In this document: positions 6,237 through 24,900 of the stretch, piece by piece
How positions within the stretch are numbered: the first letter of the stretch is position 1
Layout of the letters: every line of letters begins with the position of its first letter
DNA from: Lutjanus erythropterus
Taxonomy: Eukaryota; Chordata; Actinopteri; Lutjaniformes; Lutjanidae
Assembly (NCBI GenBank): GCA_020091685.1
Contig: CM034601.1
Location: forward strand, 15,644,972 to 15,708,971
Direction of reading: 5' to 3'
DNA: 64,000 nt
The notes under the pieces: model-generated
Seen by the model: the letters and a program-made list of their open reading frames with translations, nothing else
Database searches by the model: none
What the model was told of the DNA's origin: nothing
Position numbers and translations under genes: made by a program

Positions 6237-9002
6237 CTATGTCTGCAATTGGAACTTGCATTTACTTGTTGAAGACACAAAGTCAGTGATCCCACTTGTT
6301 AGATAGATAGGCAGTATGGAAGTTTCTAATGTTGAATGAGTGATAATGTTTGGGAGTAATTTGCATTTGATTGGGTCTGTTTTTCTTGTATTCTTCACTT
6401 TAACATCTGAGTAGATAATTTCATCCTCAGTGTGATCTGAAAGAAGAAAAAAGACACTTGAAATGAATGACAGATAATCCACCACATTTACAATGTTAAA
6501 GGGCATTAATGTGTGTGGTTTTGAGACTTATAAAACAGACCATGTCAGACAATTGTCCTACCGTAAAATGGCAACAAATAATTGAAATAGACATAATTTT
6601 CATTTTGATGGAGGGCTACCTCAGATGAAAAAAGGTTTTTAAATATCTTTGGAACTACAGTAACCAATGCTTTGCTAAAATTATCAGAAAAGGTACAGGG
6701 TAGATAGAGGACACAGAACATGTTTCTCTTACCTTCATTAACAGTCATGGGACTTGTCTTCTTTTTGAAGTGTTTGATACCAAGAAACAATGCCAAATGG
6801 AGAAGTAGAGGCAACACTTGCTGTCACAGCCACAGTCACAAGAGAGAAGTGAGAGATGGAACCTATAAAATACAAACATCAACCAAAATTAGATATTGTG
6901 ATAATGTAAACATGACCGTCTCAGCACTGTCAAGATCAGTCTGAGCCACAGCTCAAGAGCCCTAGATTTGTCTTTGCTATTTGCTCTAAAGACTACGTAT
7001 GTATCATCCTGTATGTATCTAAAAGCCAACCTGCTCCATACAGCTGGAAAATCAGGCTTTTAAAAATTTATACCAATTTAAAATGTGCAATAGCAGCAAG
7101 GATACTATATTAACCAGAGGACTAAATAACTGAATCAATAAATTAACAAAAAATCAAAAATTTGATAATTTCTTGAAATACACTACCTTTACAGCTTGTA
7201 AGATGAATAACTGTTTCTTCTGTACTGACATTGTTTTGAAACACATCAAATTTCCAGACAGGTGACCGTGTACACTGATGGTAATAGTTGAAATTTTGGA
7301 CTGGTTTGGGTTATCTGTACTCCCAGATGGTGACAGTGTGCCCACTGTTGAGCAGCTGGGGACAGGCTGTGATCTCTTGTCTGCATCAGTAAAGACCGTA
7401 GAGAGTCAAAATGAACTCTACTCCTTCTCCTGAGGAGCAGCTGATGTTCATTTGTTCTGGTGACAAACACATCTGAGAAAGCAGGCTTTGACACTGGAGC
7501 TGAAAGACAAATATACAGTGTAATGAGTGTAACCTCTAAACAATAATACAAGTGGTAAAAAAATATAACCAAATATAATAAATAATATAATAAATAATAA
7601 TAAATATAACTAAAGTGATGTAGTCTATTTTTAAAAATAACAGATATGTCTGTATTACATGGATAGAAGATGTATATTACATATAGTATATGCATATAGT
7701 ATGAATATCAATTAGTAGACCAAATATCAGAAAGAAATTTCAGTAAAATTCAATACAATTTGATGGCATCACAAACTAGAACATCCAAAGTGACTATAAA
7801 GTTGAATCAACTCTGTTTTAACAGAAAACTGAACATTATAACCTTTGTGAAAATGCTGTTGTATTAGACTGCATTAAACTGCAACTGAGTACAAATCCAC
7901 ATATATAAAAACATTTTACTATAGGTTGTTAATTTTACACCAAATTCAAATTATATACTTAGATTGAATTCACTTAAAACATATTGTATTTATAACTGTT
8001 GATACTGTAGTCTACAATATAAGTTTTTAGTAACATATTTTTTATATTTCATATTGAATATGATGTTTACAGCAAATGTATGATAATGGGCCATCTGTGT
8101 TTATGTTTATGTACCTACAGAATATTGCTGTTTAAAAATAATAGCCAGGTTCAGGATTTGATATAGATGTATTGTATTTTCTAATCAAATGTAATGTTTC
8201 ACTTTCTTTAATCCTTTGTTTAGGTTTAAAAACATTTTTATTGACTAGTGTCTATTTTAGAGAAGCTGTAACTTTAAGAAAATCCTACCTTGTATTTCTA
8301 GATGTATGTTGATTTATGTGACAGTTTACCCTCAGATCCATGTGTTTGGTATATAATCTCAGAGTCTGTTTTCTGCATTATTCAGCTTGAATGTTCCATT
8401 GGTAAAGAATGTAGAGTCATCAGGTTTAAACACACCGTTGTGTTATTGTCTGTATTTAAAATGTTAATATCCCATTCTTTTCAACTGTATCTTTGTTACA
8501 TCTGTAGGCAGGTAAAATCAATGGCTCTCCAAGTGCTCCAAACACTGCTAGGTCCGTTAGTTCCAGTTAAATTGCATTCCATCGACCTGATAGGAACAAA
8601 AATGTCAGACAGCTTAAAATACTTTAAAAATGCTACATAACTATTAGCATTTCATTTTGGAAAAAGGCAAACATATACAGCCATTTCCATTTACAAGTAA
8701 TAAATAATAAGAAATATCTTTTGTTTAGATTGTTATACAGATAATTTTTTTATTTGTGTTAATGTTTTATCCACTTTTATCAAACATCTGCAAATTATCC
8801 CTATGGTTTCAATAGTTGCAAAAAAAAAAGAAAATTATAGCAAATTACTAAGGACACTGTATAATGTGATATAGTCACTTTGATGACCTAATATACTGTT
8901 TTTGTTTAACACACAATACTATTAATACACAATTACCATGAAGTGTACTTTTGCCAGAGAAATTGGCACCAGAGCTGTGATGATCATGTAGAAGGAAATC
9001 AT
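6237..9002 (-). pseudogene. SLAM/CD2-family-like Ig receptor, copy 1 (frame-broken)
   Basis: Exons found by reading both frames: signal peptide 8949-9002 (starts MISFYMII, hydrophobic); V-set Ig 8289-8586 (retains NGTFKLNNAE and a DSGDY-like region, ends HLEIQ-like); C2-set Ig 7187-7499 (APVSKPAFS, then MCLSPEQMNISCSS in another frame, GNLMC, SCK); transmembrane 6733-6862; cytoplasmic tail 6237-6436 (contains IIYSDV, an ITIM-like motif). Exon borders keep AG/GT sites. The order signal, V, C2, TM, Tyr-tail fits CD2/SLAM adhesion receptors of lymphocytes, and the sequence resembles teleost CD48/SLAM-like and HEPACAM-like proteins known to me. Several one-base losses shift the frame within the V, C2 and TM exons, so no intact protein is encoded as written. 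It is either a pseudogene or a functional gene in a badly polished stretch; copy 2 behaves the same way. Confidence 0.7.
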
Positions 9003-9009
9003 TGTTGTA

Positions 9010-21985: not shown

Positions 21986-21988
21986 GCG

Positions 21989-24900
21989 CTACAAGTGAGT
22001 GCTGCTCAGCTGAGTGCTCTGATTGTTTTTCTTTATGGAGCACACTGCAGCAGAAGACATGTTGCTTTCTGTGTTGTTTCCCTGATTGTATTGTAGATCA
22101 CAACATTTAGGTTTGTCCAGTCCTCTTTCTTTCTGCCAGTTCCTATCACTCTCCTGTCCTTGTTGACTCTGCTGCCATTTCTCTCTGTCTTTTCTCTCAG
22201 GATTGACAGTAATGCCCTCCAGTGATGTTACTTGGCTTTCATTTGCTTGCAAGTCCAACCTAGGAGCAAAACATGAAGTACAGGGTCAATCTTTCAGGAA
22301 CAGCAAACCAGGAAGAGGAATTATTGTTATAATGCAAACAACAGAAAGTAATATCACAATAGTAGGTGAGAAATTTGATAACAGTACATTTAATTTATTT
22401 GAATGACAAATGTATTTGAAAAGTTGTTTTTACCTCTTCTCTGCCTGCACAACAGGGTCACCCTGGTAATGAGGTCATCAAGGGCTGCAGCGAGGTCATC
22501 CAAACAGGAAGAAAGTCCCAGTTCTGCAGTCTACGTGGCAAACAACCAGGCCTGTGTACCTGGAGCATGTTTACTGTTGCGCCTGATATAACCACCATAA
22601 TGACCGGTGCACGCCAATCCCAGTCATCACCCTCCACCCTGCCATGGAGAGGGCAAACACGAGGGACGGGAGCAGCAGGAAGCAGAGGAGGAGGTACAAA
22701 ACAGCAAACCAGCGGTACCTGTGTATATGTGATTTAATAATAGAATATTTTGATTTCCTTTGATGGTTCAGACATTTTTTTTTGATGAGTAAAAGAGAAA
22801 CTATTACTAATAGTACCTGGCAGTGCATTTGCCAAGGGCACAGGCCATACGTATAGGTAAGCGTGTGGCTGGTATGGGAAACCACAGCAGGATACCAAGG
22901 AGATTAAAGAAAAATGACATAAAGCAACCTGAAACACAAGAGGAGATAAAGGTGGAAGTAGGTTGGTACATTCTGGTACAGTACCTATAAAAGTGTCATG
23001 GTAGTTTTTTAATATTTACTTCTACTGCTGCTCTTTTTCATATTGTGTGCTGTGTGTTTTTGCAGGCAGTCTTTTCTTGCAAAAATCTCCCAAGTAAAAT
23101 AAGTTTTATTATGTTCAGTTTTTTTCAACAATAGGGACAGCAGGTCAAAATAAGCAAATCTTTACCCATTGAGCATCATTTAGAGACACTTTTAGCACCA
23201 CAGAGAAAGACAGTGCTGAGCTTAAATGCACTTTGAAGTGAGACAGAGAGATTACCTTTGATTTTTGATTTTTGCCCCAGTGGCCAAATGTAATAATTAC
23301 AGGAATAAGGACAAAGGTGTGTATGTATTATTTCTATCACTGTGTGTGTGTATGTATATGTGTATACTTGTGTGGCAGCAGCTAGCTTATCTCCTGGACT
23401 AGCCAGGGCTGCCAGTGTAGCTGTTGTAGTGGTGCGAGGTTGGACCCCAGGGTTAAGGGTAGGCCCTTTCAATACTGATCACACCAATCCCTGAGGATTA
23501 AAACACAAAAGATAAAAAAAAAAAAAGAACAGGACTCAAGCTAAACATGAAAAAGGATTATTATTACTACATTATTAGCTACAGTCAGGTAAAACACATG
23601 AGTAATAGACCTACTGAAAGATTTAAGATTTAAATTGTAAATTGATAACTGGTCTTTCATGAAAATTAAGTCATGTTTCAGGTTTAAATTGAGTTTGATA
23701 ACTACTCCTTGTAGTAGCTTTAAATTGTAGAGTTTGTTTGGTATTGAACAAATATCCTATGAAAGATATTTCACAAACATGCTTAACTATTATCTGCTAC
23801 ACTCCTGTTAATGTTGTACAAGCCAGCAGGGGAGTTGTGTATGAAACACTGAGGTGGTCATTTATTAATCGTGAAATGGACAGAAAAGAGGAAGACGTTG
23901 CTAGAATTTACAAACAGCTTATACTAATGTATAATACATAGTAAATAACAAAGTAAAGATATTGTTCCCAAGTGTAGAAACATTTAGGAAAAGTTCAGTT
24001 TGGTAGGCATTATGATATTTATTATATACTGTATATGTATTTATACATGTGTTTGTGTGTGTCTTACCTATGAGAGGAGTGATGGCAGAGGTGAAGACTG
24101 AACTACTCTGAACCAAAAGGTCATGCTGGCTCCCACTATTAGAGCCAGATAACCTGCCAGCCACGTAAATGGGAGCGGGAAATCTAGAGGACAGGACATA
24201 ACAGGACAGTGCATGGATGTGTCCTCCTGCACATTGTCATTGTTAAAATAAAGATTCAATTTAAGATCAGTTAAGGATAATGAAAAAGCTGTGGGCTTAA
24301 CTGTGAGATTGTATATTACCTGTATTAACAACTTTATTAATAGCACCGCCACCTGGCCCTTCAGCAGGAGTTGAGCAGTTTAACCAGCAGTATCAGACAG
24401 CTGCACAGCACCAACAGGAGCAGGCCAGGAGGATCAGACCTATGGCCAAGTCTGACAGAGAGCAGTCCACAAAGAGATGTCTGCCTGGGCAGAGAGACAG
24501 ATGTGACGTGTGTGATGAGGATTTAATGTAGAGACCCAAGATTGTTGAAATGAGAAACTAAATTTAACTTGCAAGATAATTATCAGTGTGGTTAATTTGC
24601 AGTGCATGTTGATGATTGATGCTAAATTGATTGAAGTTAAATTCAATGATGAAAATGAGGAATGAGGAAAAATGTATGATAGAGGATGAAGACGTTATTT
24701 TGTCGCTGAGAGCTCACAGAAATACTTAAAAACAGACAAAATGGCATACATTTCTGTGTATGTTCTGAGAGGTTGTGTGTTCCCCAGGATGTGTCATTGT
24801 CCTGTCAGTAATGTTAAACAAGGAGAGTGCAGACTCAGACAAAGAGATGGGACAATTTCAAAATACAACATATGCAGCAATAACATTAGTTTTTAGTTCA

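Follow-up and report, generated by a model that had tools for sequence, protein, structure and literature searches.

The locus examined here raises a question with practical consequences for gene annotation: are three genes that appear broken in a fish genome assembly true pseudogenes, or are they intact genes that lost bases when the sequence was produced? The window, by which we mean the whole 64-kb stretch of DNA analyzed, is N-free throughout and looks teleost-like on reading. It carries a gene of the SLC34 family (type II sodium-phosphate cotransporters), two gene copies read as SLAM-like to the left of it, and organic cation/carnitine transporter (OCTN) genes to the right. Coding sequence between about 6.2 and 24.5 kb is disrupted by small frame breaks and coding sequence further right is not, a pattern that is real in the sequence. 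An earlier note had described this pattern and offered an unpolished long-read patch as an explanation at least as good as pseudogene decay.

Frame breaks in the SLC34 gene

The SLC34 gene runs from 27.1 to 22.0 kb on the minus strand. Its read-through protein matched solute carrier family 34 member 2a (PDB 9z60; E 3.5e-189), which we take to be the zebrafish protein slc34a2a, and gave a Pfam match to Na_Pi_cotrans. Frame breaks were counted by frameshift-tolerant dynamic-programming alignment of slc34a2a to the exons. Exons 1 to 6 (27,132 to 24,750; 745 bp) showed no frameshift in this alignment. They comprise the first exon found, which starts in mid-protein (26988 to 27132; AG/GT borders), exon 2 (26698 to 26841), exon 3 (26439 to 26550), exon 4 (26160 to 26355, corresponding to residues 191 to 257 of slc34a2a), exon 5 (25032 to 25127), and exon 6, a 52-bp exon for an extracellular loop (24750 to 24801). 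The last of these, absent from the exon list of the earlier note, was placed by its AG/GT borders and phase, as the matched stretch of slc34a2a does not span it; its phase agrees with exon 5 on one side and exon A on the other, and it supplies the cysteine that opens exon A.

The five exons that follow, A to E (22.43 to 24.48 kb, 801 bp), contained nine frameshifts at penalties of 12 and 18 and eight at a penalty of 25, where the last break of exon E drops out. Exon A (24320 to 24484) has one-base losses near 24,421, 24,365, and 24,342; exon B (24068 to 24183) has one near 24,114, at a T run; exon C (23368 to 23490) has two, near 23,454 and 23,434; exon D (22817 to 22928) has one near 22,912, again at a T run; and exon E (22434 to 22718) has two breaks, near 22,611 and 22,480. 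The loss in exon D was seen in the joined alignment, and the exon alone shows no shift because the solo alignment begins past the break. Some of the losses, for example, the one near 24,365, lie in no run that is obvious by eye. Eight of the nine breaks were scored as -1, and the remaining one, in exon E, was scored as +2, which is the same class modulo 3 and is fitted equally well by -1 with one extra residue. A single frame class for all nine has a two-sided probability of about 0.004 if both classes are equally likely, and nine breaks in 801 bp against none in 745 bp has a probability of 0.003 under an even spread. The earlier count of about eight breaks in five exons, and the description of a clean 5' half and a broken 3' half in one gene, are thus borne out by alignment.

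A probable C-terminal exon of 271 bp lies further left (21989 to 22259, minus strand), with 89 open codons and an STHL end that resembles the PDZ-type ends of SLC34 proteins. Its start phase is off by one relative to the end of exon E, and in Pfam it gave only a subthreshold match, to an unrelated family. It contains no inner break, where about three would be expected from the rate of 9/801 (P about 0.05).

Open frames and the edges of the span

Exon pieces were also scored as open if any frame was open, with borders set by hand, which for a few OCTN pieces are some bases out of place, and with the SLAM-like cytoplasmic exons left out of the count. To the right of 24.5 kb, 28 of 28 pieces were open (6 of SLC34 and 22 of OCTN, about 4,280 bp), compared with only 5 of 14 in the span (2,628 bp), where the other 9 had no open frame (Fisher p=4e-6). 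The claim that the right-hand exons are unbroken therefore stands, while the tally that went with it, 5 SLC34 and 21 OCTN exons in about 3.9 kb, was low. The open pieces of the span are SLC34 exons B and D, the probable C-terminal exon, and, from the SLAM-like genes, the transmembrane (TM) exon in copy 2 and the signal exon in copy 1. Exons B and D have an open frame yet carry one break each under alignment, and the span exons with no break of their own are the other three. Taken together, the alignment and the open-frame count show that dense losses of one to two bases are present in the coding sequence of the span.

The breaks stop abruptly, as the earlier note had said, but slightly to the left of the 24.5 to 25.0 kb that it gave: the last one is found at 24,421, and coding sequence resumes at 24,750. 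Since an exon as short as 52 bp may easily escape a break by chance, the edge is bounded firmly only from 25,032 onward, where the next clean exons lie. On the other side, the edge near 6 kb was taken from the span of the earlier note and from a scarcity of G/C runs; no gene suitable for testing frames was found to the left of about 6 kb within the window.

Tests for pseudogene decay

The first alternative to weigh is true pseudogene decay, by short deletions, of SLC34 and of both SLAM-like genes, which would account for the 9 of 14 span exons without an open frame. The broken half of SLC34 shares 170 of 254 residues with slc34a2a (66.9%) and the clean half 139 of 219 (63.5%). Against a provisional human SLC34A2 sequence, the values are 186 of 257 (72.4%) and 147 of 216 (68.1%), and this similar ratio between the halves indicates that conservation of the broken half is at the expected level. 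When neutral decay of the clean half was simulated, its identity of 63.5% dropped to 53.6% at eight substitutions per indel and to 60.7% at two. There were no in-frame stops in exons A to E, although this is weak evidence by itself (P of 0.16 at eight substitutions per indel), and the 11 exons, whose borders were picked by hand to fit, have AG or GT at every one of their 22 splice sites. Excess amino acid change and nonsense codons, the marks of a true pseudogene, were not found in SLC34, and apart from the losses the coding sequence of this gene is unchanged. Judged by these comparisons together with the simulation, ordinary decay is a poor fit for SLC34 and was rejected. True pseudogenes are an unlikely explanation, given a 3' half of SLC34 that shows no loss of identity, no stops, and no loss of splice sites and nine breaks that all fall in one frame class.

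The SLAM-like copies

Both SLAM-like copies lie on the minus strand. In copy 2 (14860 to 19090), we read a signal exon at 19,090 to 19,024, a V exon at 18,918 to 18,609, a C2 exon at 16,477 to 16,237, an open TM exon at 15,402 to 15,272, and cytoplasmic exons at about 15.0 to 14.9 kb. The corresponding parts of copy 1 (6220 to 9002) are an open signal exon at 9,002 to 8,937, V at 8,586 to 8,289, C2 at 7,499 to 7,187, TM at 6,862 to 6,733, and cytoplasmic exons at about 6.4 to 6.2 kb. The name SLAM-like is our assumption, taken from the earlier note; neither Pfam nor PDB supported the family name for these copies, and one lone OCTN exon was also Pfam negative.

About 16 breaks were counted by hand in the two copies, 9 of them of the -1 class and 7 of -2 or +1. 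Copy 2 also contains two in-frame stops by hand reading, one (TAG) in its signal exon and the other (TAA) in its V exon, and these are a point in favor of true pseudogenes. The earlier note's description of the breaks as mostly one-base losses is right for SLC34, where eight of nine are plainly -1, but covers only 9 of about 16 in the SLAM-like copies. Its remark on hardly any nonsense substitutions, made on SLC34, is right for that gene, which has no stops.

It could be argued that the SLAM-like exons are mis-modeled, fast-evolving sequence and that only the breaks in SLC34 are meaningful. The missing Pfam and PDB support for the SLAM-like reading would agree with this, but the two copies have a common exon order and similar sequences, and their exon pairs contain more small gaps relative to mismatches than OCTN coding pairs do (15:110 versus 4:150, p=0.003). 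We therefore regard mis-modeling as very improbable.

Noncoding repeats and homopolymer runs

If bases were lost regionally, noncoding DNA of the span should also be affected, and repeats with copies inside and outside the span allow this to be examined. Three interspersed copies of one noncoding repeat, at 1313 to 2116, at 3703 to 4039, and, within the span, at 11231 to 12079 (within 11190 to 12090, plus strand), are about 73 to 85% alike. Over all noncoding pairs counted, gaps of one to two bases stood to mismatches as 34:182 in pairs touching the span (three LS, one SS, and one SR) and as 18:297 elsewhere (thirteen RR and one LL; Fisher p=1.8e-4). The LR pair, the OCTN coding pairs, and the tandem arrays were left out of this count. 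Dropping the pair in which the 11-kb copy is used again gave p=0.001. Three of the five pairs touching the span contain this copy; within its family only, the ratios were 28:134 and 4:39 (p=0.24), and without its family, they were 6:48 and 14:258 (p=0.12). The excess of small gaps amounts to about 1.5% per span base, similar to the exon rate of 9/801. As for direction, the 11-kb copy is short of one to two bases at 18 places and the left copies at 9 (18/27, p=0.06), and when span copies were set against outside copies, the bases were missing from the span copy at 22 of 31 places (p=0.015), some of which may be one event aligned twice. A count over all pairs, coding sequence included, gave 45:263 versus 18:297 (p=2.8e-4); this is not a noncoding result, and five of its six within-span pairs are SLAM-like exons.

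Homopolymers gave a signal for G/C runs only. Among G/C runs of at least two bases, none of 918 in the span but 25 of 2,667 elsewhere reached a length of at least five (p=6e-4), while A/T runs showed no clear deficit in the span (best p of 0.09). The span for this comparison was fixed beforehand by the earlier note, and sliding spans of equal length overlap it and are not independent of it. These data suggest that base loss was regional and struck the noncoding DNA of the span as well. The noncoding signal leans mostly on one repeat copy, a circumstance that tells somewhat in favor of true pseudogenes.

A real and very recent regional burst of deletions only, or a damaged haplotype, with no time for substitutions, would cover both the many losses without substitutions in SLC34 and the gap excess in the repeats, but it would call for a mutational process of a kind not yet known, and one that stops sharply at an edge, and we give it almost no credence; the same holds for the version in which about 18 kb of one haplotype was struck so that three genes broke together while substitutions were untouched.

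A probable poorly polished consensus

A poorly polished long-read consensus is very probably what explains the frame breaks, and three broken genes as biology are probably not what the assembly displays. The proposal of the earlier note is in this sense supported, though not proven, in that SLC34 is without other decay and all nine of its breaks are of the one-base-loss class. Two weaker lines, the small gaps in noncoding repeats and the shortage of long G/C runs, point the same way. Several observations weigh against it: the high loss rate of about 1%, A/T runs that show no clear deficit, the unbroken C-terminal SLC34 exon, losses outside any obvious run, the reliance of the noncoding comparison on one repeat copy, and, in the SLAM-like genes, the two stops and the 7 of about 16 breaks that differ from plain one-base losses. 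On this explanation, about 6.2 to 24.5 kb would be a stretch of long-read consensus that did not receive proper polishing and that is missing about 1% of its bases, probably outside exons as well as within them. The bases would have been removed by sequencing or assembly and not by mutation, intact genes would read as frameshifted where bases are missing, and SLC34, which spans the edge of the patch, would appear intact over its 5' half but disrupted over its 3' half. The most likely cause would be that short reads could not be placed here, owing to a duplicate (allelic or false) in another part of the assembly, or that few reads underlie the stretch.

On this reading, the span is an instance of a kind of artifact that is already known, and its interest is practical but small. 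The Vertebrate Genomes Project (VGP) paper describes a frameshifted TLK1 gene in Anna's hummingbird at a locus left unpolished (PMC8081667). As proposed for the span, a limited unpolished stretch there gave a frameshifted gene, but TLK1 was traced with reads (PMC8081667). The same paper puts continuous long-read (CLR) sequence before polishing at Q30-35, as against about Q20 in the span (PMC8081667). The loss rate of about 1% found here thus does not match unpolished CLR assemblies as characterized there, being ten or more times higher, and from this rate we infer that low coverage, a gap fill with raw reads, or older nanopore data is likelier than an ordinary unpolished contig. The lake trout paper cautions that duplicated regions hold more short indels when multimapping reads are excluded, and it cites Watson and Warr 2019 (PMC9291852). 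The likeness to that PacBio assembly lies in indels that disturb gene annotation and are expected where reads multimap, and the difference is that short indels are stated there as a risk and not for one locus (PMC9291852). In the long-read drafts treated in the Kastor paper, frameshifts likewise make genes mimic pseudogenes, but the gene-fragmenting errors occur there in small genomes, unlike the fish span (PMC12007338). Among the papers listed on false pseudogenization, most treat gene loss, and one treats false losses in assemblies.

If the breaks are an artifact, scoring SLC34 and the two SLAM-like genes of this assembly as pseudogenes would be an error, and tallies of lost genes or decayed immune genes based on the assembly would be inflated. 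A pseudogene label for these three genes is not yet warranted and would be premature. The comparison of gaps in noncoding repeats between a suspect span and its surroundings works without reads, and with more repeat families, it could flag further patches.

The OCTN genes and other features of the window

The coding sequence to the right of SLC34 belongs to OCTN genes. An OCTN-like (SLC22) gene lies on the plus strand (30854 to 38540; 10 of 10 exon pieces open), followed by a three-exon OCTN fragment, also on the plus strand (42809 to 43401; 3 of 3 open), and by an OCTN2-like gene on the minus strand (47586 to 59227; 9 of 9 open), which matched organic cation/carnitine transporter 2 (E 1.8e-212). 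The fragment is broken off within its first exon and may have arisen by a recent partial duplication. In the plus-strand gene, coding exon 1 (31061 to 32510) is split by a 1.45-kb interruption in phase 0, which has edges of the form GTGAGA...GAG and carries AGGTG at either end, while exon 1 of the minus-strand copy is unsplit; one possible origin of the interruption is an insertion that duplicated its target site and became an intron. Tandem arrays are present at 56397 to 56676, with a 56-bp unit, and at 59700 to 60310.
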